The notes under the pieces: generated by a model
Told to the model about the DNA's origin: nothing
Seen by the model: the letters and a program-made list of their open reading frames with translations, nothing else
The model's database searches: none
Part shown: piece by piece, positions 709 through 37,770 of the stretch
Layout: each line of letters begins with the position of its first letter
Position numbering within the stretch: position 1 is the first letter of the stretch
DNA from: Prosthecobacter sp.
Lineage (GTDB): Bacteria > Verrucomicrobiota > Verrucomicrobiia > Verrucomicrobiales > Verrucomicrobiaceae
Assembly (NCBI RefSeq): GCF_029946185.1
Contig: NZ_JAQSEA010000133.1
Span: 1 to 43,341, forward strand
DNA: 43,341 nucleotides
Direction: 5' to 3'
Translations under genes and position numbers: made by a program

Positions 709-4569
<3,861 letters not shown>

Positions 4570-4622
4570 CTCATCTTCCCCAGAAACCCAGCGCATAAAC
4601 CTGCCACCCATCTCCACACATC

Positions 4623-7600
4623 ATGAATGCTGACGCGAGCTTGAAAGAAATCTTCGGGGAACCCAAACACGGCGAGGAGTTCGACTATGTGTCGATCTGT
4701 ATCGCCTCTGCGGACCGCACCCGCTCCTGGTCCTCCGGTGAAGTTAAGAACCCAGAAACCATCAACTATCGTACGTTCAAGCCTGAAAAAGGCGGCTTGT
4801 TCTGCGAGCGTATCTTCGGACCCACCCGTGACTGGGAGTGCGCCTGCGGCAAGTACAAGCGCATCAAGCACAAGGGGGTCGTTTGCGACCGCTGCGGTGT
4901 TGAAGTGACTCTGTCCCGCGTTCGTCGCGAGCGCATGGGCCACATCGAACTCGCTGTGCCAGTGACGCACATCTGGTTCTACAAGTGCATGCCTTCCCGC
5001 ATCGGCCTCATGCTCGACATGACCGCCCGTTCGTTGGAGCGCGTGATCTATTATGAAGACTACATGGTCATTGATCCAGGCAGCACCCCGCTTCAGCGCG
5101 GCCAGCTCCTGACCGAAGTCGATCTTCGTGAAGCCGAAGAGCAGTACGGTGCAGACGCCTTCCGCGTCGGCATGGGTGCTCAGGCCATCCGCGACATCTT
5201 CGCCCAGCTCAACCTGGCGGACGTGACGAAGGAACTCGAAGAGGCGATGACCAAGACGCGCTCCAAGCAGATCCGCAAGAAGCTCGCCAAGCGCCTCAAG
5301 CTCTGCCAGGGCTTTGCTGAAAGCCACAGCCGTCCGGAGTGGATGATCCTCGAAGTGCTGCCGGTCATCCCGCCAGACCTTCGCCCCCTCGTTCCTCTCG
5401 AAGGCGGCCGCTTTGCGACCTCCGACTTGAACGATCTCTATCGTCGCGTCATCAACCGCAACAACCGTCTCAAGAACCTTCTTCAGCTTCGCACACCGGA
5501 TGTCATCATCCGCAATGAAAAGCGCATGCTGCAGGAAGCTGTGGACGCCTTGTTCGACAACGGCCGCCACGGCCGCCCAGTGACCGGCGCAGGCAACCGC
5601 CCGCTGAAGTCCATGTCCGACATGCTCAAGGGCAAGTCCGGCCGCTTCCGTCAGAACCTTCTCGGCAAGCGCGTCGACTACTCCGGCCGTTCCGTCATCG
5701 TTATCGGACCTGACCTTCTGCTGCACCAATGCGGTCTGCCGAAGAAGATGGCCCTCGTGCTGTTCGAACCCTTCATCATCCGCCGTCTCAAGGAGATGGG
5801 CTTGGTGCACACCGTGCGCTCCGCGAAGAAGATGATCGAACGCCGCACCCCAGAAGTGTGGGACATCCTTGACGAAGTGACCAAGGGTCACCCCGTCCTC
5901 CTCAACCGTGCTCCGACCCTCCATCGTCTTTCGATCCAGGCTTTCGAGCCGAAGCTCATCGAAGGTGACGCCATTCGCGTGCATCCCCTCGTTTGTACGG
6001 CCTACAACGCCGACTTCGACGGTGACCAGATGGCCGTCCACGTCCCGCTTTCCATCGAAGCTCAGATGGAAGCCCGCTTGCTCATGCTCGCGCCGAACAA
6101 CCTGTTCAGCCCTGCCAGCGGCAAGCCGGTGATGAATCCTTCCCAGGACATTCCTCTGGGCTGCTACTTCCTCACCTACCTGCGTGAGTTCCCGAATCAG
6201 GATGCCAAGGCCAAGAAGGGTGATGTCGAAGGTCGCGTGCCGATCTTCAACGACGCCTCCGAAGTTGAGTTCGCCATTTCCGAAGGCGGCTTGACGGTGA
6301 ACGACAAGGTGCGTTTCCGCAATCCTGACTGGAACATGCCGAAGCGTCCGTTTGGTGACGGCAGCAAGGCCGTGATCGAAACCACCGCAGGTCGTGTTCT
6401 CTTCAACGAAACCTGGCCTGAGGGCCTCGGCTTCATCAACACCACCGTCGGCAAGAAGCAGATCTCGGACATCATCTGGCGCTGCTTCCAGACCGTGGGC
6501 CAGAAGGAAACCGTCAACGCGCTCGACCGTCTTAAGACGCTCGGCTTCCGCGAAGCGACTCGTTCCGGTTGTTCCATCGGTATCACCGACATGGTCATCC
6601 CGACCGCCAAGGCCGCTGGTCTTGAGAACGCCTACAAGCAGATCGAAGAAATCGAGAAGCAGTATCGCCGTGGTATTATCACCAACGGTGAGCGCTATCA
6701 AAAGATCATCGACATCTGGACGCAGGTGGGTGAAATCGTCGCCGACGAACTCTTCCGCACGTTGGAATACAACGAAGGCAAGAAGCACCACAATCCGCTC
6801 TACGTCATGGTGAACTCGGGTGCCCGAGGCAACCGTACGCAGATCAAGCAGCTTGCAGGTATGCGCGGTCTGATGGCCAAGCCTTCCGGTGAAATTATCG
6901 AACGTCCGATCACCTCGAACTTCCGTGAAGGTCTGAGCGTGCTCGAATACTTCATCTCCACTCACGGTGCTCGTAAAGGCCTTGCCGATACCGCACTTAA
7001 GACGGCTGACTCCGGGTACATGACCCGTAAGCTCGTCGATGTGTCTCAGGACGTCATCGTCACTGAGGAAGATTGCGGCACGGTCAACGGCATCACGCTT
7101 GCTTCCATCTATCAGGGTGACGAAGAAATCGTCGATCTCAAGACCCGCGTCTATGGCCGTGTCTCCTGCGAAACGATTCACGATCCCGTGGACAAGAGCG
7201 TCGTCATCAAGGCCGGTCAGCTCGCTTCCGAAAAAGAAGCCGCTCACCTCGCCAAGATCGGTGTCGAGAAGCTCAAGATCCGCTCCGTGCTCACTTGCGA
7301 AAGCAAGCGTGGCTGCTGCTCGAAGTGCTACGGCCTCCACCTCGCCACGCACAAAATGGCGAAGATCGGCGAAGCCGTCGGCATCGTCGCTGCTCAGTCC
7401 ATCGGCGAACCCGGAACTCAGCTCACCATGCGTACCTTCCACGTGGGTGGTGCTGCCACGGCCTCCTTCAAGCAGCCCTTCATCAACGTCAAAAACGCTG
7501 GTACCGTCAAGTACACCGACATGCGTGCGGTTACCACGATCGAAGGCACCTGGATCGCTCTTACCAAAAACGGTATCCTCTCCATCCATGACGACGACGG

Positions 7601-8762
7601 TCGCGAACTCGAAAGCCACAAGCTGGTCACGGGTGCCGTTATCGCTGTCGAAGACGGTGGCAAGGTCAAGAAGGGCCAGCAGGTCGTCACTTGGGATCCG
7701 TATAACGTGCCAATTATCACCGAGAAGGCTGGTAAGCTGGAGTTCCGCGACATGATCTCGGGCATCACCATCACCAAGGAAAAGAACGAGTCCACCGGCA
7801 ACGAAGAAACCGTCGTTATCGAGCACAAGGAAGATCTCCATCCGCAGGTCGTCGTTGTGAATCCGAAGACGCACGAAGTTCTCGCCAGCTACACCATTCC
7901 AGCGGGCGCTCACTTGAGCGTGAAGAACAACGAGAAAGTCGAAGCGGGTACCACCATTGCCAAGACGCCACGTAAGGCATCGAAGACGAAGGACATCACC
8001 GGTGGTCTTCCACGTGTGGCAGAACTCTTCGAAGCCCGTAAGCCGAAGGACGCCTGCGAAATCGCCCGTATCGACGGCACCGTCGAAATCGGTGGTCTGG
8101 TCCGTGGCAAGCGCCGCGTGATCGTCACCGACAACAAGACCGGCCAGCAGGAAGAACATCTCATTCCCCGCAGCAAGCACATCTTGCTGTTCAACGGCGA
8201 CCACGTCAGCAAAGGCGACCAGATCACCGATGGTCCAGTCGTTCCGCATGACCTCCTCGAAATTCTTGGCCCACAGGCTCTCCGTGAGCACTTGGTCACG
8301 GAAGTTCAGGAAGTGTACCGCGCCCAGGGTGTGGAAATCAATGACAAGCACGTTGAGATCATCATCCGTCAGATGCTCCGCAAGGTGAAAGTCACCGACA
8401 CCGGCGACACCGAGTTCCTCTGGGGCGACCAGATCGACCGCGGCGAGTTCGAGAAGGAAAACAACCGTGTCATCGAAGAAGGCGGCAAGCCTGCGGAAGC
8501 AGAGCCCGTCCTCCTCGGCATCACCAAGGCTTCCATCGAAACCGAATCCTTCATCTCGGCAGCTTCCTTCCAGGACACCACCCGTGTGCTCACCGAAGCC
8601 GCCACCCTTGCCAAGTCCGACTTCCTGCGCGGCTTCAAGGAAAACGTCATCATGGGTCACCTCATCCCAGCCGGCACGGGCTTCATCACCAACCGCAACT
8701 TCGAACTCCACGAAACCGAGCGCCCTGCGCTGCCTGTCCTCGTGGACGAAGACGCGGCCTAA
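4623..8762 (+). CDS. rpoC: DNA-directed RNA polymerase subunit beta'
   Basis: Catalytic beta' subunit, 1379 residues. The N-terminal zinc site is at about residues 73-91 (Cys-Ala-Cys-Gly and Cys-Asp-Arg-Cys pairs). The universally conserved [12 protein letters not shown] loop, whose three aspartates hold the active-site magnesium, is at about 462-473. The second zinc site (one Cys, then CCSKC) is at about 892-905. The trigger-loop/bridge-helix region is recognisable by [15 protein letters not shown] just downstream. The length is typical of Gram-negative-type beta'. It lies 53 bp after rpoB, without a Shine-Dalgarno sequence, and is closed by the terminator at 8788-8823. The opposite strand carries a 1404-codon shadow frame that is not a gene. 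Confidence 0.99.
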
Positions 8763-27387: not shown

Positions 27388-28125
27388 TCAATGCGCCATG
27401 CTGCCGAGGCCAACCCCCGCCACCATCAGCAGGAGGAACAAGGCGGCGAAGATCAGGTAGATGAGGGTGATGATGCCGTAAAACTTCCAAAACCGCCGCT
27501 GTTCCGCGAGTGCGGCGGTCAGGTCGGTGAATGACTGCGACTCGGCGAGCCGGCTGATGCACGAGGCATATTTGCTCAGCTTCAAAGTGGGATAAACGAT
27601 GAGCATGGCGGTGATGCCAAAAAACACCATCATGAAGACCAGCATGCCAAAGCCCATGCCACCGTTGCCTTTGTCGGCCATGGCGCTGGCGGTGACCACC
27701 CCGATGATCAAATTGCCCACAATGGACAGGAGGAAGAGCGCACAGACCAACCACATCAATATCGAGATCAAGCGCACCCAGGGTTTGGTGCCGGTGAGTT
27801 CCGCGATGATGGGCAACGGCACCGCCCCGATGGCCCCGCTCTGCGTTTTGGCGCTGGGTGCCGCATAAGGATTGACGTTGGCAGGTGTCAGCCCCTTGGG
27901 TTTCGTGATCGGGGCGCTGCTGGGAGCTGCATTGGTCCTGGCCTGCGGCGCGGTGTTGGCTGGCGCTGCGGTGCCGACAATTTCAGTCAATCCCTGCCAC
28001 CCGGTCATGCCTTCACGCCAGCCCCAGTCGGTGGCTTGAAAAAAACCGGTCTTCAGACCTTCTTGAATCTGGGTGGCATCAAAGGAGCCAAGTTCCTGGC
28101 CGTCGCGGGTGATCAAATAAGCGCT
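27388..28125 (-). CDS. GYF_2-domain membrane protein (DUF4339-type, DUF5362-like)
   Basis: A 245-residue protein from the MSAYLITRDG start; a Met 4 codons upstream (28137) is also possible. Residues about 1-48 form a GYF_2 domain (GQELGSFDATQIQEGLKTGFF, then WREGMTGWQGL). This domain is common in Verrucomicrobia and thought to bind proline-rich peptides. A Pro/Ala-rich linker follows, then a membrane domain with four hydrophobic helices between about 120 and 245. No enzyme motif is seen. It lies downstream of the cytochrome/WD40 protein on the same strand, and another GYF_2 protein lies just upstream of that gene. Function unknown. Confidence 0.75.
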   Translation of the reverse strand, partial: SAYLITRDGQELGSFDATQIQEGLKTGFFQATDWGWREGMTGWQGLTEIVGTAAPANTAPQARTNAAPSSAPITKPKGLTPANVNPYAAPSAKTQSGAIGAVPLPIIAELTGTKPWVRLISILMWLVCALFLLSIVGNLIIGVVTASAMADKGNGGMGFGMLVFMMVFFGITAMLIVYPTLKLSKYASCISRLAESQSFTDLTAALAEQRRFWKFYGIITLIYLIFAALFLLLMVAGVGLGSMAH

Positions 28126-28218
28126 CATGAGTGCCACGGTTTTAAGGGTGATCGGGCACCGGTGTCGAGGTATATTTAGGCGGAAGACGGGTAAGGAGTG
28201 TGCTTATGGGGAAGGCGG

Positions 28219-28255
28219 CTGGGATCGCGGCGGCATTGGAATGCTGCGGTCCCAG
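28219..28255 (-). terminator. Hairpin after the cytochrome/WD40 gene
   Basis: CTGGGA (28219-28224) pairs with TCCCAG (28250-28255). Pairing extends inward through imperfect CGC/GCG and GCATT/AATGC segments with a small bulge. It starts a few bases past the stop of the 1211-residue protein. No U-run follows on the minus strand. Confidence 0.45.
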
Positions 28256-28258
28256 GGC

Positions 28259-31200
28259 TTACTTCGGCAGCATCGTGAGATACTGCTCGTTCATCTGCTT
28301 CACTTTGGCGCGCATCGGGTCGAGCTGCGGCTGGAGTTTGGCGAGTTCGGCAGTGGCTTCGGCGATGATCTTGTCCTTCTCGGGGATTTCCTTGGTGGCT
28401 GCGGCGATGGTGGCCTCGGCGTCGGTCTTCTTCTTCTTCGCACCTTCGAAATCACCGCTCGCTTTGGCAACTTCAGCCTTCTTGGCGTCGAGCACCTTTT
28501 GCTCTGCGTCCAGCTTGCCATGGGCGGCGGCGTAGGCCTGCTCCAGTGGAGGCAGGGTGGTCTTGGCAGCGGCGAGAGCGGCGTTGATCGGCGCAATCTT
28601 CGCGGCGTAGTCCTTCTCGATCGCGGCAGGGGCAGCCTGCTTGTCGGCAAGCGCCTTGCCCTGCGCTTCGATTTCCTTCTGAATGGCGTCTCGCTGCGCA
28701 CGCGGCGTGGCGGTCTGCTTCTCAGCGGCGGCGAGTTCGTTTTTGGCCTGGGCAAGCTGCTGCTCAGCGGTCTTGATCGCGGCCAGCGCCTTGGTCACGT
28801 TCTGCGGGTTGTTGGCGGCTTTGGCTACGTCCCTGGCCTTGGTGGCGGCGTTCGTGGCATTCTTCTTCGCGCCTGCATCGCCTTCAGTGGCCTGGAGGGC
28901 GCTGGCGATGTCGGCCAGCGCTTTTTCAGCTGCGGTCACTTTCGCGGTGAGGGCTGCATCACCCGCCTTGGCGGCGAGTTCCTTCTTCGCCGCAGCTACG
29001 GCGTCAGTCGCAGGCTTCTGTTTGGCGCGGACTTCATTGAGCGCTTTCTCAGCAGCGGCCTGGGCTCCCGTGGCTGCAGCCAGGGCGGCTTCTGTGTCCT
29101 TGGCAGCCTTTGCCTTGTTGGCGAGGTCAGCGGTGGCGTCGGTGTGGGCTTTCTTCGCAGCGGCCAGGGCGGCGTCTTTCGGCACAACGGCATCCTGCTT
29201 CGCCTTCACGATCTTTTCAGGACCGGCGAGCTTGGCGGCGACTTCGGCGAGGCTCTTCTTCTTGCCTTCGATCAGCTTGGCAATGTCAGCGGCGGCTTTC
29301 TTGACGGCGGCGATGCTGTCCTCTTTGGCTTTGGCGGCGGCGGCGAGTTCAGCCTCCTTCGTGGCGGCGATGGTCTTTTGCTCATTCACCTTGGCGGCAG
29401 CAGCGGCGTCCGCATCGCGCGTGGGCTTGATGGCGGTTTCGAGGCCACCCTGTTCGCCCTGCGCTTTTTTCAACACTGCTTCCAGGCCGGGCTGGGCGGC
29501 GGTGGCTTCGGCGATGGCTTTTTTGGAATCCTCAATGCGGGCGGCGGCGGAGATCTTGGCAGCTTCGGCATCTTTTTTGGCCTCGGTGAAGTCGGTGAAA
29601 TCACCTTCGAGCTTGGCGAGTTTTTCCTTCTCGACGAGCACGCCGGTGTTGAACTGCGCGGCCTTCAATTCGGTGGGCACTTTTTGCAGAATGCCGATTT
29701 CATTGCTGGCGGATTTTGCAGCGGTCTGCGCGTTGGCAAGATTGGTTTTGCCGGTGGCGGCATTGCTCTCGGCTCCTTTGATGCGATCGGGCCCGGCTTT
29801 GACAAGCGCTGGCAGTTTCGGCAGTTCAGCCTTCTTCGCAGCGATGCCATCGACAGTGGCTTTGATCTTGGCGTCGGTCTCCGTGATGAGTTTATCAAGA
29901 TCCGCCGGGGCGGCTGGTACGGCACCCAGCTCTGCCTTGGCTTTGGTGATGGCTGCGGTGAGTTGGTCGGCCTTCGCCTTGGCTGGAGCAATCTTTTGCT
30001 GCGTGGCTTTCGCGGCGGCGAGCTTGCCTTCGCTGTCTTTCACCTTGGCGGTAAGAGCGGCGTCACCGGCTTTTGCGGCGAGTTCTTTTTTAGCGGCTTC
30101 GAGCGCGGCAGTGGTGTCAGTCACGGCCTTGTCCGCAGAGGTCAGCTTGGCGGCTTCGGCGGCGACAGGTGCGAGTTCTTTTTCCTGGGCCGCGATCTTG
30201 GCGGATTTCTCTGCGAAGGTTTTGATGGCGGCGGTGCGCGCGGCTTTGTCCTGCTCAGCCTTGGTGCGGGCGGCCTTGAGGGCGGCGAGGGCTTTTTCGT
30301 CAGCGGCAATTTCGCCGGGCAGATTCTTGCTGCGTGCTTCAGTGGCGGCGACTGCTGCGCGCATTTTGACGAGGGCTTCATCGCGTGCCTTGGCGTCGGC
30401 CTCGGCTGTTTTGATGGCTGCCTGCAGAGCCGGGAGCTTGGTGGTGAGTTCGTCCAGACGCTGCTCGGTCTGCACGATGCGCTGGGCGATGAGCGAGGGA
30501 TTGCTGGTGAAGCGGGCGGTTTCAGTCAGCGCGGTAGCACCGAAGCGCCACTGGATGACTTCGCCGCGCCAGTTGGCGGAGATGGCGGAATTGGAGTCGA
30601 AGGCGGCGATGACCTTGGTGACTAGATCTCCCTGGTTGGGAGCTTCGCCGAGTTTGGTGCCGTTGATGTCCCATACGCGGACGAGGCCGTCGTTGCCGGA
30701 GGAAACGATCTTGCCATCCGGCGTGAAGGAGACGGACTGTACGCCACCCCCGTGAGCCGCCCAGTTCTTGACCTGCTTGCCCTCGTTCATTTCCCAGGTG
30801 CTGATGGTGCCGTCCATGGAGCAGGAGGCGAGGATGTTCGAGTCGGCGCGCCAGGCGACGTCCACGCAGGAGGCCTTGTGCTGGCCGAGGGGGTAGAATT
30901 CACCGCCGGTGGCGGCTTCCCAGACGTTGACATTGCCATTGCGGTCGGTGGTGGCTAGCAGCACGCCATCGGGGCTGAACTCGGTGCTCATGACCCACTC
31001 CGTGTGCTTGTTGATGATATATTCCTCTTCGCCGTTGGAGGTTTTGTACACTTTGACCTTTTTCGAGGGGCTGCCGATGACGATCAATTTGTGATCCGGG
31101 CTGATGTCGGCGGACATGACCTGATCGAACTCTTTACCCACTTCGGTGATGCGTTTGCCCGTTTTGACATCCCACACGATGGCGTGGCCGTTTTTGCCCG

Positions 31201-31885
31201 CACGACCGCCACCCATGATGAGCAGGGAGCCGTTGCGGCTGAAGCTCAGGCTGCGCGCATAACCTTCAGTGTAGGGGAAAATGCCGACGAGCTGTTTTGT
31301 GTCGGTGTCGTAAAGCAGGATCTGCTTCGGCGCGGCGAGCGCCATCAGCGAGGTCCACGGACTGGCGGCCATGGCCGTGACGGCGGTGGTGCGCTGGGTG
31401 ACGATGACGGGCTCCAGCAGCACATGCTCGGGCTTGGCGATGGGGCCTTCGGGTTTGCCACTGGTGACGGCCACAGCCATGTCCACCTTCGGTTTGGCGG
31501 ATTTTTTGGCGATGCTCGACTTGGTGTCGAGGATGCCACCTTTGATCCAGGCGGCGAGGAGATCGAGATCCTTTGGCCCCAGCGGTGTGCCTTCCGGTGG
31601 CATGAAGGGCTCTTCCTTTTTCGCACAGGTGGTCCAGATGCGGCTGCTGTCCGCGTTGCCGGCATCCACCACGGAACCGCCGCCGCCGCCATTCATGAGC
31701 GCGCCGAAGCTGGTCAGGTCCAGGTCACCCTTCTTTTTATCGGGATTATGGCAGGAGAAGCATTTGTTCTCCAGCAGCGGGCGGATGTGATCCTGATAGG
31801 TGATTTTTTCGACAGCGTCCTGGGCATGAAGAGACACTGCGGCGAAAGCCGCACAGGTCAGCGAAAGGGTGGTTTTGGACATCAT
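28259..31885 (-). CDS. Exported PVC-type cytochrome c, WD40 propeller and giant coiled-coil fusion protein
   Basis: About 1210 residues; the start may be 31885 (used here) or 31894. Residue numbers count from 31894. A signal peptide ends at HAQ-DA. A planctomycete-type cytochrome c domain has the heme motif CFSCH (45-49) and a probable axial Met in PFMPPEGTPLG (about 97). Roughly residues 165-475 form a seven-blade WD40-like propeller (VWDVKTGKRI, ADISPDHKLIVIGS, VNVWEAATGGEF, SFTPDGKIVSSGNDGLVRVWD). The last ~700 residues are an Ala/Lys/Glu-rich coiled coil with internal repeats, including AAKKELAAKAGDAALTAKV at about 600 and 966. Its base bias leaves long open frames on the opposite strand. 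The role is unknown; electron transfer or cell-surface scaffolding is inferred. Confidence 0.9.
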   Translation of the reverse strand: MMSKTTLSLTCAAFAAVSLHAQDAVEKITYQDHIRPLLENKCFSCHNPDKKKGDLDLTSFGALMNGGGGGSVVDAGNADSSRIWTTCAKKEEPFMPPEGTPLGPKDLDLLAAWIKGGILDTKSSIAKKSAKPKVDMAVAVTSGKPEGPIAKPEHVLLEPVIVTQRTTAVTAMAASPWTSLMALAAPKQILLYDTDTKQLVGIFPYTEGYARSLSFSRNGSLLIMGGGRAGKNGHAIVWDVKTGKRITEVGKEFDQVMSADISPDHKLIVIGSPSKKVKVYKTSNGEEEYIINKHTEWVMSTEFSPDGVLLATTDRNGNVNVWEAATGGEFYPLGQHKASCVDVAWRADSNILASCSMDGTISTWEMNEGKQVKNWAAHGGGVQSVSFTPDGKIVSSGNDGLVRVWDINGTKLGEAPNQGDLVTKVIAAFDSNSAISANWRGEVIQWRFGATALTETARFTSNPSLIAQRIVQTEQRLDELTTKLPALQAAIKTAEADAKARDEALVKMRAAVAATEARSKNLPGEIAADEKALAALKAARTKAEQDKAARTAAIKTFAEKSAKIAAQEKELAPVAAEAAKLTSADKAVTDTTAALEAAKKELAAKAGDAALTAKVKDSEGKLAAAKATQQKIAPAKAKADQLTAAITKAKAELGAVPAAPADLDKLITETDAKIKATVDGIAAKKAELPKLPALVKAGPDRIKGAESNAATGKTNLANAQTAAKSASNEIGILQKVPTELKAAQFNTGVLVEKEKLAKLEGDFTDFTEAKKDAEAAKISAAARIEDSKKAIAEATAAQPGLEAVLKKAQGEQGGLETAIKPTRDADAAAAAKVNEQKTIAATKEAELAAAAKAKEDSIAAVKKAAADIAKLIEGKKKSLAEVAAKLAGPEKIVKAKQDAVVPKDAALAAAKKAHTDATADLANKAKAAKDTEAALAAATGAQAAAEKALNEVRAKQKPATDAVAAAKKELAAKAGDAALTAKVTAAEKALADIASALQATEGDAGAKKNATNAATKARDVAKAANNPQNVTKALAAIKTAEQQLAQAKNELAAAEKQTATPRAQRDAIQKEIEAQGKALADKQAAPAAIEKDYAAKIAPINAALAAAKTTLPPLEQAYAAAHGKLDAEQKVLDAKKAEVAKASGDFEGAKKKKTDAEATIAAATKEIPEKDKIIAEATAELAKLQPQLDPMRAKVKQMNEQYLTMLPK

Positions 31886-31927
31886 AGAGGGCATCCAAAC
31901 ATACGCTCGATAAAGGCGTGGACTTTC

Positions 31928-31948
31928 GGATAGGATTACAGCCTATCC
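31928..31948. repeat. Hairpin spanning the stop codon of the GYF_2/DUF4328-like gene
   Basis: Perfect 7 bp stem GGATAGG (31928-31934) with CCTATCC (31942-31948) around a 7 nt loop. It overlaps the last codons of the GYF_2 protein gene and lies about 35 bp upstream of the cytochrome/WD40 gene start. It could attenuate readthrough between the two genes. Confidence 0.35.
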
Positions 31949-32889
31949 ACATCTTGCCACTGACTGCTCGAATTTTGCCAGTGGGCGTCGTCGTCCCAGT
32001 GGGTGTAGAGCCGCCTTTGCTGAAGGAAATTGGTGATCACAAGGACCAGCAAAGTGACGTCGATACCGATGATGGCAAAATTTTGGACCTGATTTATGGC
32101 GGCGCGATGCGAGGAGGAGTCAAACATCGCGAAGACGTTGATGGAGAAGCAAAGCAAAATGAAAGCTTCCAAAGTGATGAGCAAAAGGCCGAAAGAAGCC
32201 TGAGGGTGGGGAACGTCGCGGCGTGTGCGGCTCAGATACCGCATGTCTCGCAGGCATAGCAGGGGCTTGAAAAAGCTGGCGATGGGAACCAGCCACCAAA
32301 GCCCCGAAGCAAGGCTGCGGCGGACCAGACCTCCGTATAAATGCCGCAGCGAAGCAAAGGCACAACCCTGCCATATGACGACGGTGATCGTGCCCACTAT
32401 GGACGAGGTTAAAGCCTGGTCATGGCTCACGAAATCCTTCAGCCTCACGGCAAATAGCTGCAATCCCTGCGGCCATGCCGCCCCGCCAGAGAGTCCGGAG
32501 TAATGAATGAAAATCATTGAAATCCAGCAGGCAATTTCAAACAGCAACGCCCCCGTACAGAGGATGAAACCGAACCAGAGCACAGCAGGCAGCCGGGTCT
32601 GTGGCAGCGCTAAAAGCCCTGACTGCGGCGGCGCATAAGCAACCGAGGCACCGGGCAGACTGGAGTCGAAAGGTTGTGCGCTGGAAGGCTGCTCCGGGGA
32701 AGGTGGCGCAGCTTCTGGAACGGGCGGTAGATCGGGCCGGATTTGCGCGACGGTGCTCCACTCTGCCGCGTCAGACCTTCTGACGCGGGAGCTGCCCAGC
32801 AAGCGCCCGCGCTGGACGAGGTTGTGCATCATGACGCCGGTGATCGGACCAAAGGTGGTCTCACCGCGTTGATAGTACCATTCGTCCAT
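31936..32889 (-). CDS. GYF_2-domain membrane protein (DUF4328-like)
   Basis: A 317-residue protein from the MDEWYYQRGETTFGP start, where the GYF_2 domain begins. Ten upstream in-frame codons were rejected because they precede the domain. The GYF_2 domain is at residues 1-50 and a Pro/Ala-rich linker at 55-95. A membrane domain with about five or six hydrophobic helices follows, including FGFILCTGALLFEIACW and the WWLVPIASFFKPL motif typical of DUF4328. The C-terminus is charged and hydrophilic. It lies directly upstream of the cytochrome/WD40 gene, with 50 bp between its stop and that gene's start. Function unknown, possibly peptide binding at the membrane. Confidence 0.75.
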   Translation of the reverse strand: MDEWYYQRGETTFGPITGVMMHNLVQRGRLLGSSRVRRSDAAEWSTVAQIRPDLPPVPEAAPPSPEQPSSAQPFDSSLPGASVAYAPPQSGLLALPQTRLPAVLWFGFILCTGALLFEIACWISMIFIHYSGLSGGAAWPQGLQLFAVRLKDFVSHDQALTSSIVGTITVVIWQGCAFASLRHLYGGLVRRSLASGLWWLVPIASFFKPLLCLRDMRYLSRTRRDVPHPQASFGLLLITLEAFILLCFSINVFAMFDSSSHRAAINQVQNFAIIGIDVTLLVLVITNFLQQRRLYTHWDDDAHWQNSSSQWQDVDRL

Positions 32890-32937
32890 GTGAATGGAAG
32901 ACCTAGCCGCCGCTACCACAGAAAAGCAAGAGGCTGC

Positions 32938-34110
32938 TTATTTTGCGAGCTTGTAGATCGCCCCATTAAAGTCGAGCACCAGCATTTCCCCGGCGGCATT
33001 CGCGCAGAAGGCGGTGGGCTTGACGAGCACCATCGGTTTCTTTTTGGGATCAGTGGCCGGTGTTTGCGGGCTGGTGTAGAGCAGTTCGTTGCTCAGTTTC
33101 TTGCCGCTGTCATCGGTTTTGAGCGCCCAGACCTTGCCGAGAATGAAGTCGCCATAAACGTAGGCACCTTGCAGTTCCGGCAACGCCTTGCCAGTGTATA
33201 CAATGCCGCCCGTGACGCTGAGGCCTTCGGCGTGATTGTAGGCATGGACGGGCTCGATGAACTTGGCGTCAGCGGGTGGCGTGTCGGTCATCAAAGGGAA
33301 GGCGGCGGGGCCTTCGCGGAAGTTCCAGCCGTAGTTGCCGCCGTTGGTGATCCAGTTGATTTCTTCCCAGATGTCCTGACCCACGTCGGCGCACCAGAAG
33401 TGGCCTTTGGCATCAAAGCTGAGGCCCCAAGGATTGCGGATCCCGTTCGCATAGATCTGTGGCAGGGCGTTCACGCCGCTGGCATACGGATTGTCGGCGG
33501 GAATGCCGTAGGCCTTGGCGTAATCGCGATTGTTGACGTCGATGCGGAGGATTTTGCCGTACAGGGTGGCATTGAGCTGGGACATCTTCAGTTCGCCATT
33601 GCGCTTCGAGTTGTCGCCGACGCCGATGTAGAGGAAGCCGTCGGGGCCGAAGACAATGTTGCCGCCGTGGTGGTTCCAGTTCACGAGGGGGATTTCGATC
33701 AGCGAGCGTTCGGTGCTTTCATCCGCCTTGTCGCCATTGGCCTTCATCTCGGAGATGACGAGACGCTTGGGCTTCTGCATTGTGTAGCAGAGGTAGAAGA
33801 GGCCGTTATCCTTGAACTTCGGGTGGAAGGCCAGACCGTTGAGCCCTTCTTCAAAAAAGCCGTCCTTCGCTTCCATGCCACGCGGGGAGAGGTCGAGAAA
33901 GGTCTTCGCCTCAGCGCCCTGCTCGTCCTTCGGCAGGATCACAATCTGCCCGCGCTGGAGTGCCAGGAACTCCCGACCAGTGCCATCCTCCGGCATCACG
34001 ACCGCGATGGGGCGCTCGGTGGTGAGCTTTTCATAAACCCGGGTGAGTTTGTGCGTGTCAGCCGCAAAAGCAGCGGAGGAGAGGAAGGCGAGGCAGAGAA
34101 GGGAGCGCAT
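32938..34110 (-). CDS. Secreted PQQ-dependent sugar dehydrogenase (glucose/sorbosone dehydrogenase family)
   Basis: A 390-residue protein from the MRSLLCLAFLSSAAFAA start; 47 earlier in-frame codons lack a signal and were rejected. The signal peptide is cleaved near FAA-DT. The rest is a six-bladed propeller of the glucose/sorbosone dehydrogenase family. Diagnostic segments are GLNGLAFHPKF, NHHGGNIVFGPDGFLYIGVGD with the family His, YGKILRID, YANGIRNPWGLSFD, and the DVGQDIWEEINWI block. It oxidises sugars at the periplasmic face using PQQ or acts as a related hydrolase; no PQQ synthesis genes are nearby. It is divergent from the 34224 lipoprotein gene. Confidence 0.9.
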   Translation of the reverse strand: MRSLLCLAFLSSAAFAADTHKLTRVYEKLTTERPIAVVMPEDGTGREFLALQRGQIVILPKDEQGAEAKTFLDLSPRGMEAKDGFFEEGLNGLAFHPKFKDNGLFYLCYTMQKPKRLVISEMKANGDKADESTERSLIEIPLVNWNHHGGNIVFGPDGFLYIGVGDNSKRNGELKMSQLNATLYGKILRIDVNNRDYAKAYGIPADNPYASGVNALPQIYANGIRNPWGLSFDAKGHFWCADVGQDIWEEINWITNGGNYGWNFREGPAAFPLMTDTPPADAKFIEPVHAYNHAEGLSVTGGIVYTGKALPELQGAYVYGDFILGKVWALKTDDSGKKLSNELLYTSPQTPATDPKKKPMVLVKPTAFCANAAGEMLVLDFNGAIYKLAK

Positions 34111-34223
34111 AAGTTCGAATGAGTCAGTCAGTCTATGCAGGCCGAGTCTTGCAGGGCAATGAAGATTTTTCGCGGGTGGGGAAGTGGATTGCCATCCATA
34201 TACCCACCCGATAGGCTGCTGCC

Positions 34224-34706
34224 ATGAGTTCGGTTGTTCGCAATCTACCACGCATCACGCTGCTGCTGGCCTTCAGCATGGGCCTCGCGTCATGCACTTC
34301 TACGCCGGTGCCATCCCCTCCGCCGCAGGCTGCCAAGCCGGAGCATAAAAAGGATTACTCTGCTTTGCGCATCGGTGGCCGCGAAGAGCTGCAACTGCCC
34401 GGCATCGGCCTCATTCATGCCGACAATCGTGAAAATTCGCCCGGCGGCGAGATGCTGTTCTCTGGCCGTGTGTTTCTAGATATAAAAAGCTCCGAAACTG
34501 ACCTGTTATTGCTTGGGAAGGCGCATCACGCCTACGCTGAAAAAGCCCGCTGGAATCGTGAAACGGGTGTTCTCCGTCTGGAAGGGTTGTCGATCGTCGA
34601 GTTTGACAAGGTGGTAGCCGAGGGGACTGAGGCTGGTACTCTGGTTTTTTTTGACAGGAGTGGCAAGATCACCACCCGAGGTGCCCATACGCATACCTTT
34701 TATTAG
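34224..34706 (+). CDS. Lipoprotein, LptC/OstA-like fold suspected
   Basis: A 160-residue lipoprotein with a Leu-Ala-Ser-Cys lipobox (Cys24) and a proline-rich linker to about residue 43. The remaining ~115 residues carry a repetitive beta pattern (IHADNRENSPGGEMLFSGRV, LLLGKAHHAYAEKARWNRETG, LRLEGLSIVEF). This pattern recalls OstA/LptC beta-jellyroll proteins of lipopolysaccharide transport (inference, no motif match claimed). It is a single gene, divergent from the sugar dehydrogenase. Confidence 0.7.
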   Translation: MSSVVRNLPRITLLLAFSMGLASCTSTPVPSPPPQAAKPEHKKDYSALRIGGREELQLPGIGLIHADNRENSPGGEMLFSGRVFLDIKSSETDLLLLGKAHHAYAEKARWNRETGVLRLEGLSIVEFDKVVAEGTEAGTLVFFDRSGKITTRGAHTHTFY

Positions 34707-34783: not shown

Positions 34784-34984
34784 ATGAGTCTGGAGACCAT
34801 CATGCAAGAAGCTCGCAAGCTGGGCCTGCCGGAGCGTCGCCGGCTGGCGGCTTTCCTGACCACGCTCAGGGAGCCCGGCGAACCTGGCTTTGCAGAAGAA
34901 ATGGCCCGTAGGATTGACGACAACACGCCCGGACACTGGGTGACTGTGGAAGAACTGAGCACAAGATACGCGGCTGATTCATGA
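34784..34984 (+). CDS. Antitoxin-like small protein of a type II toxin-antitoxin pair
   Basis: A 66-residue, mostly helical, charged protein (SLETIMQEARKLGLPERRRLAAFL then an acidic stretch). This matches the general antitoxin pattern of an N-terminal DNA-binding or dimerisation part and an acidic C-terminus that binds the toxin. Its stop overlaps the ATG of the next gene (ATGA at 34981-34984). The call depends mainly on this coupling with a ParE-like toxin. Confidence 0.7.
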   Translation: MSLETIMQEARKLGLPERRRLAAFLTTLREPGEPGFAEEMARRIDDNTPGHWVTVEELSTRYAADS

Positions 34985-35238
34985 TCGAATACCGACTGCT
35001 GCTGGCGCATGAGGTCATCGTGTTTCTTGACTCCATCAAGGCGGCGGATCGGAAACGATTGATCAAGCGTTTTCTGGAGATCACCAGCTATCCAGCGCGA
35101 TATGCTGACTACGAAGAGCGTGACGCGGTGGGGCGCAGACTCGATGTGCATGTCCATGCCGGCTACGCGATTGTCTATTGGGAGGACTTTGCCGACCGGC
35201 ATTTGAAGGTGCTCGATGTCAGGCCAGCCGATCATTGA
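34981..35238 (+). CDS. ParE/RelE-family toxin-like protein
   Basis: An 85-residue protein of the RelE/ParE type: EYRLLLAHEVIVFLDSIKAADRKRLIKRF, then the central beta hairpin DVHVHAGYAIVYWEDFADRHLKVLDVR. The pattern with a terminal LKVLDV segment is typical of the ParE family, whose members poison gyrase, while RelE members cleave mRNA. The class cannot be fixed by eye. It is translationally coupled to the antitoxin. The next gene, proS, starts 43 bp after its stop. Confidence 0.78.
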   Translation: MIEYRLLLAHEVIVFLDSIKAADRKRLIKRFLEITSYPARYADYEERDAVGRRLDVHVHAGYAIVYWEDFADRHLKVLDVRPADH

Positions 35239-36882: not shown

Positions 36883-37770
36883 TCATCGCAGCACCTCGCC
36901 CTTCGTCACATCCCCCGGCACATCCAGCAGCATGATCTGATTGATCGTCTTGAACTGGCTGTGGTCGGCTACTTCCCAGACGATCTTTTTGTCACGGGTG
37001 ACTTCGATGACCTGGGCCTGCTCGCCGAGGTGGCCGTGGCCGAGATAAACGCAGAAGACGGTGTTGCCGTTTGGCAGGCGCTGGCAGCCGGCCATGAGGC
37101 GCAGGGTGTAACCGGGGATGTCGTTTTCCGCGAGTTCCCACACGATGTTTTCTTTGGCATCAAGCTCGCGCACTTGGTGGCCATCGCCGCAGGTGATGAG
37201 CATGCCACCTTCGGGCAGCGGCACGACTTCATGCGGATCTCCGGGGACTTTGATTTCGCGCAGCACTTTGCCGTCGCCATCGAGTTCGACGATTTTGCCT
37301 TCGCCTTTGAATGTCACGAGGTAGTGGCCGTTGGCGAGCTTGCGCGCGCCCCGAAACTGGTTGTGCAGTTTGATCTCAGGGGCTGTGGTCAGTTTGATCT
37401 CCTTGGCGATTTTCCCGGCGCGATCGACCTCGATGATGCGGCTGGTGCCACACTCCACGATCATCACATTGCCGTCTGGCAGCGGCTGGCAGGAATGCAC
37501 TTCGACCTTCACATCCGTCGGCGCTTTGTATTCCCAAACGATCTTCTTGTCTGGAGTCACCTCCAGGGCCCCGCTGACAAAGCAGAAGAGGTAGTTTCCA
37601 TTCGGCAGCTTCCAGCAGTCCTGCGGGCTTTTGCAGTCCCACTGCCATTCGATTTTGCCTTCGGCAGACACCACGCAGACCTTGCCGCCCCCGTAGTCGC
37701 AGCAAAGAAACGGATGGGCCGCAGAAGCGGTGGAGACGAGGGCGAAGAGAAAGGCGATGAGTCGGATCAT
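36883..37770 (-). CDS. Secreted beta-propeller (PQQ/NHL-like) protein
   Basis: A 295-residue exported protein (signal peptide to about residue 17, ASA-AH) built of repeating blades of roughly 40-45 residues. Each blade alternates GxxxWxW/VWEY strands with LPNGNxLxxx turns (WKLPNGNYLFCF, LPDGNVMIVECG, RKLANGHYLVTF, PLPEGGMLITCG, RLPNGNTVFCVY). The pattern resembles PQQ-like or NHL repeats of PVC proteins. No catalytic residues are assigned. It is convergent with proS and lies downstream of rex on the same strand. Confidence 0.8.
   Translation of the reverse strand: MIRLIAFLFALVSTASAAHPFLCCDYGGGKVCVVSAEGKIEWQWDCKSPQDCWKLPNGNYLFCFVSGALEVTPDKKIVWEYKAPTDVKVEVHSCQPLPDGNVMIVECGTSRIIEVDRAGKIAKEIKLTTAPEIKLHNQFRGARKLANGHYLVTFKGEGKIVELDGDGKVLREIKVPGDPHEVVPLPEGGMLITCGDGHQVRELDAKENIVWELAENDIPGYTLRLMAGCQRLPNGNTVFCVYLGHGHLGEQAQVIEVTRDKKIVWEVADHSQFKTINQIMLLDVPGDVTKGEVLR

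Follow-up and report, generated by a model that had tools for sequence, protein, structure and literature searches.

An exported PSCyt1-WD40-coiled-coil protein of Prosthecobacter is a likely subunit of a DUF1501/PSD1 module whose genes are scattered in its genome

Genomic clusters containing DUF1501 genes have been described in PVC bacteria (Kamneva et al. 2012, cited in PMC4452313), as have Planctomycetes WD40 genes with DUF1501 neighbours (PMC5587647). The Planctomycete-specific cytochrome proteins PSCyt1, PSCyt2, and PSD1 are documented by Studholme et al. (via PMC2754498) and in PMC5615132, and a redox role has been suggested for PSD1/PSC2 proteins (cited in PMC2754498). The clusters, the PSCyt/PSD domains, and the Planctomycetes DUF1501-WD40 neighbourhood are already published. 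Planctomycetes and Verrucomicrobia have DUF1501, DUF1549/DUF1553, and PSCyt1 in abundance, but the function of these families is uncharacterised. Here, we describe a 1211-residue protein, BIG, and its relation to these systems. Like the clusters in the accessible portions of PMC4452313 and PMC5587647, loci of BIG orthologues encode an exported DUF1501 protein and a WD40 protein. Unlike the clusters described there, the WD40 protein adds a PSCyt1 domain, a long coil, and a conserved tip, the gene block includes a PPC-domain protein, and the genes are scattered in the clade of the DNA analysed. BIG shares PSCyt1 with the published cytochrome proteins, and its partner, here called PSD1, shares PSCyt1, PSCyt2 (DUF1549), and PSD1 (DUF1553). 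The coil-bearing WD40 subunit, its tip, and the four-gene set with its break-up were not found described in the largely open-access literature searched. The DUF1501/PSD1 module with BIG is probably a redox system, so far poorly understood, of these bacteria, and the co-inherited four-protein set with its distinctive rod gives a defined gene list for experimental work.

The window, i.e., the whole stretch of DNA analysed, comprises 43,341 nucleotides from Prosthecobacter sp. The features of BIG and its neighbours are as follows.

27388..28137, minus strand: GYFb, membrane protein with GYF_2 and a weak DUF5362 match (ORF, Pfam)
28259..31894, minus strand: BIG, exported PSCyt1-WD40-coiled-coil protein, 1211 aa (ORF, domain matches, model, orthologues)
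31820..31894, minus strand: BIG signal peptide, residues 1-25 (M-K-hydrophobic core-HAQ)
31589..31762, minus strand: BIG PSCyt1 domain, residues 45-102 (PF07635, E = 1.7e-14)
31748-31762, minus strand: CxxCH of BIG, C45-F-S-C-H49
30506..31372, minus strand: seven-bladed WD40 propeller of BIG, residues 175-463 (Pfam, model, fold match)
28271..30490, minus strand: helical coil of BIG, residues about 469-1208, ~740 aa, of variable length among orthologues (alignment, periodicity, model)
29603..29668, minus strand: conserved mid-coil stretch LKAAQFNxGVLxEKEKLAKLE, residues 743-764 (conservation)
28262..28282, minus strand: C-terminal tip of BIG, Y-L-x-x-L-P-K, residues 1205-1211 (orthologue comparison)
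31936..32919, likely start 32889, minus strand: GYFa, membrane protein with N-terminal GYF_2 (ORF, Pfam)
32938..34251, minus strand: exported GSDH-type (PF07995) propeller, upstream of BIG (Pfam)

BIG is a real, ancient exported protein. A preliminary description of the sequence had presented it as an exported fusion of a heme domain, a WD40 propeller, and a coiled coil, and on this point the open reading frame, Pfam, periodicity, and structural model agree. Orthologues keep the hydrophobic N terminus; Cys14 was rejected as a lipoprotein site because it is not kept among them. The "CxxCH cytochrome domain" of the preliminary description does contain a CxxCH motif, the only one in BIG, but is not generic: it belongs to a named Pfam family, PSCyt1 (PF07635; score, 54.6 bits; cut-off, 22). 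A domain search of the translated protein placed WD40 repeats at residues ~180-450; eukaryotic WD40 Pfam matches, mostly far under their own cut-offs, were set aside as generic propeller similarity. We modelled the mature protein with AlphaFold2, supplying 43 orthologues (mean pLDDT, 80.7; pTM, 0.48). The propeller was confident (mature residues 150-438) and was followed by helices to residue 1183, with the heme domain in the low-confidence part of the model. The best Foldseek match in the PDB was a 7-bladed WD40-type propeller (7bie_A; TMt, 0.92).

BIG is orthologous to genes within DUF1501-PSD1 clusters, as judged by the complete loci and a tree (see below). A tight same-strand arrangement, DUF1501-PPC-PSD1-BIG with BIG last, was present at 27 of 80 named loci, and block-bearing loci come from Opitutae, Verrucomicrobium, and Prosthecobacter lineages. 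The complete block also occurs in genomes G009, G019, and G055, and is present with divergent transcription at L184 and in G040; at eleven further loci of the 80, PSD1 lies beside BIG with or without PPC, several of these loci being at contig ends. Between the PSD1 stop and the beginning of the BIG match lie 24-248 nt. The leader of the DUF1501 protein contains SRRDFL, as is typical for the twin-arginine pathway, the PPC-domain protein has about 810 residues, and PSD1 combines PSCyt1, Ig-like domains, DUF1549, and DUF1553 (Pfam) with two CxxCH motifs and one Cx4CH in most orthologues. The AlphaFold model of PSD1 (mean pLDDT, 56.8) was too poor for a fold search. Structure searches found no credible solved relative for PSCyt1, DUF1549/DUF1553, or DUF1501, so the substrate and redox role of the block are guesses. 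A possible kinship of DUF1501 to the sulfatase/alkaline phosphatase group received no confirmation from the structure search. The conserved block contains no porin gene. Conduits of the porin-cytochrome type, which serve extracellular electron transfer (PMC5615132), resemble BIG in having an exported c-type cytochrome; they differ in pairing a multiheme cytochrome with an outer-membrane porin, whereas only one heme motif is present in BIG and its partners include no porin.

The distribution of BIG follows that of PSD1 and PPC. Within the genus, BIG was found in 34 of 35 genomes, one holding part only, and the genome without it is 68% complete; outside the genus, several further families of the order also have BIG. 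Across an even sample of 288 genomes from the phylum, scored with hand-chosen thresholds, strong matches to BIG, PSD1, and PPC coincided in the same 19. A twentieth BIG match (G262) was partial and of WD40 type, and only BIG was matched there. Two of the 19 (G242 and G259) have short BIG-like open frames (568 and 595 aa), indicating PSCyt1-WD40 relatives without the long coil. One family (f2) includes one genus with none of the three genes and four genera with all three. Among 56 closer relatives, nearly all relatives compared being metagenome-assembled genomes, the profiles of BIG and PPC agreed except in G020 (68% complete), G034 held only part of BIG, and all three profiles were concordant apart from these two incomplete genomes. 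A simple probability for the co-occurrence would mislead because the genomes share ancestry.

The window's own copy of BIG sits outside any DUF1501/PSD1 cluster. BIG is on contig C133, and orthologues of the block genes lie elsewhere in the same genome: PSD1 (76% identical) on C274, PPC (75%) on C235, and DUF1501 (60-61%) on C240 and C301. In the single-contig genome G302, the BIG, PSD1, and PPC genes are likewise widely separated, at 2.55, 2.67, and 3.92 Mb, and the scattering is therefore not purely an assembly effect. We built a tree of the BIG head region (95 rows, quick method, rooted on paralogues); its open forks and long branches restrict what can be claimed in finer detail. The window falls within a 22-row clade (support, 100) that does not have the block, with operonic lineages on both sides; the short-paralogue outgroup is also operonic. 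The simplest reading, given these flanking lineages and outgroup, is that the window's clade lost linkage to the block. Because the block order, the co-occurrence of BIG, PSD1, and PPC, and the retention of the genes though scattered all point the same way, we consider it fairly probable, although the window copy lies apart from its proposed partners, that BIG serves as the subunit with cytochrome, propeller, and rod in a coil-bearing subtype of the PVC DUF1501/PSD1 module.

Five intact paralogous clusters are also present in the window's genome (C270, C59, C37, C169, and C181; loci L069 and L192-L195), in which PSCyt1 and WD40 sequences related to BIG occur with DUF1501 and PSD1, and three of them (C270, C59, and C181) also have a PPC-like match. 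The paralogue on C270 (L069), within a DUF1501-PPC-PSD1 cluster, is 36% identical to BIG over the head; unlike BIG, it has about 455 residues and lacks both coil and tip. On C37, the open frames that hold the PSCyt1-WD40 and PSD1 matches are equal in length (1162 aa) and on one strand, so the two may be a single fused protein.

The preliminary description had instead grouped BIG with its two neighbours, as one possible membrane-anchored system. The placement of BIG between two same-strand membrane proteins stands; their GYF_2 matches are marginal (25.6 and 22.2 bits for the translated proteins against a cut-off of 25.8, with one of the two exceeding the cut-off in a genome-level search), and the span originally given, 28219-32889, omits the downstream GYF gene (27388-28137). 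That GYFa, BIG, and GYFb make up a single complex for surface electron transfer or scaffolding, held in the membrane by the GYF_2 proteins, now seems most improbable. The three genes share a strand with gaps of 41 and 121 nt, and the order recurs in G001 and G013, but conservation in relatives, on which the proposal had been made to depend, does not extend further: the order was found only in G000, G001, and G013, i.e., 3 of the 56 relatives, and GYFa matches in only 6. Most relatives have no GYF genes beside BIG. In G029, the GYFa homologue, BIG, and the GYFb homologue are on three contigs (C110, C13, and C117), an outcome that the preliminary description had itself named as refuting its proposal; of the nine GYF_2 matches in the window's genome, seven are away from the BIG locus. 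Of the 14 BIG loci adjoining metG (window included), 9 have GYFb beside BIG, and in the other five metG comes directly after BIG. No GYF gene separates BIG from metG at L043, L109, L110, L111, L113, and L114. In relatives whose BIG is 84-92% identical, the GYF proteins are just 40-60% identical. A hairpin directly 3′ of the BIG stop (28190-28262, minus strand; −17.5 kcal/mol; z = −2.4), which has no T run, hints weakly at a transcript end and so also speaks against a shared unit; a promoter and terminator scan gave counts near those of shuffled sequence. We read the two GYF_2 genes beside BIG as probably incidental or specific to the lineage, accessory rather than conserved partners. There is indeed a multi-gene system, but what BIG belongs with is DUF1501, PPC, and PSD1, and a scaffold or electron-transfer role is still the likeliest type of function for BIG. 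The case is a warning that in scattered genomes gene adjacency misleads on partnership; the likely partners of BIG are on other contigs.

The upstream neighbour invites a similar pairing. The exported GSDH-type propeller (32938-34251) lies beside BIG in most metG-site relatives and not elsewhere. That BIG now partners this protein in a sugar-oxidising pair would fit the upstream position of the GSDH gene at the majority of metG-site loci; the arrangement is, however, restricted to the window's clade, and the original partners of BIG are still in the genome, so we regard the pairing as very unlikely.

Probable membership in the DUF1501/PSD1 module leaves the rod of BIG to be accounted for. Alanine makes up 29% and lysine 15% of the 747-residue C-terminal part, whose hydrophobic period of 3.48 residues has a power of 1.33, whereas none of 200 shuffles exceeded 0.72; the coiled coil thus exceeds what composition would give by chance. 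SMC-type NCBIfam matches on the coil were far under cut-off and were dismissed as generic coil similarity. An exact 19-residue repeat (AAKKELAAKAGDAALTAKV) occurs at residues 600-618 and 968-986; since the DNA of the two copies differs at several bases, the coil may have grown by an old internal duplication. The model shows the coil as helices up to about 180 residues long. A propeller followed by helices, in a protein of the PVC lineage, recalls the PVC membrane-coat-like proteins. Those proteins are cytoplasmic with a stacked alpha-solenoid, whereas the helices of BIG are predicted to be long and continuous, extending beyond 100 residues with a heptad period, instead of short and stacked, and its signal peptide and c-type heme motif point outside the cytoplasm; we find a membrane-coat-like identity scarcely credible.

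Among orthologues, coil length runs from about 270 to 740 residues, and conservation within the coil is poor save for the mid-coil stretch (conservation of 0.73 compared with about 0.45-0.6 for most of the surrounding coil) and the tip. The pattern Y[LFVMQ]xx[LVN]P was present near the C terminus in 77 of 79 complete orthologues. Because the length varies while the ends stay fixed, the comparison suggests that the coil is a spacer joining two fixed interfaces. At the other end of BIG, C45, C48, H49, and M98 show no variation across 44 aligned sequences, in keeping with a c-type heme ligated by methionine; Met98 (in Met98-Pro-Pro) is the probable distal ligand. The same observations bear on whether BIG is purely structural, i.e., an envelope tether whose propeller and rod link PSD1/DUF1501 to peptidoglycan or the outer membrane, with a heme no longer relevant to electron transfer. 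Conserved ends on a coil of about 270 to 740 residues would suit a tether, as would the presence of only one CxxCH in BIG, but a CxxCH and Met98 invariant in all 44 sequences are what a working heme site would show. We consider a purely structural role unlikely, though by no means negligible.

We favour BIG as a redox subunit of the module, and a working scheme can be put together from the domains. The four exported proteins, DUF1501 (with its twin-arginine-like leader), PPC, PSD1, and BIG, would work as a cell-envelope complex. BIG is predicted to bind heme and exchange electrons, so that PSD1 (two CxxCH and one Cx4CH) and BIG (one CxxCH) could pass on electrons taken from a substrate on which PSD1 and DUF1501 act. 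Partners would dock on the propeller of BIG, and the long coil with its near-invariant tip would act as a spacer that fixes how far the heme-propeller head stands from a second partner or another layer of the envelope. A bolder version, which we put forward tentatively and think improbable as a whole, is an undescribed envelope-spanning redox machine: a DUF1501/PPC/PSD1 enzyme core with the heme-propeller head of BIG on a rod tens of nanometres long, the conserved tip docking on another envelope layer, rod length tuned by lineage, and the genes remaining functionally together after break-up of the operon.

Other genes in the window were also noted. The rpoB and rpoC genes at 709-8762 (plus strand) are ordinary housekeeping genes. 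An 85-residue open reading frame at 34981-35238 (plus strand) has no Pfam match and has copies, 89-93% identical, beside proS at L037 and L039. The gene at 36883-37770 (minus strand) encodes a leader-bearing propeller-like protein, Mala_s_1-like and arylsulfotransferase-like; the nearest relatives have it close to proS, with 88-95% conservation.
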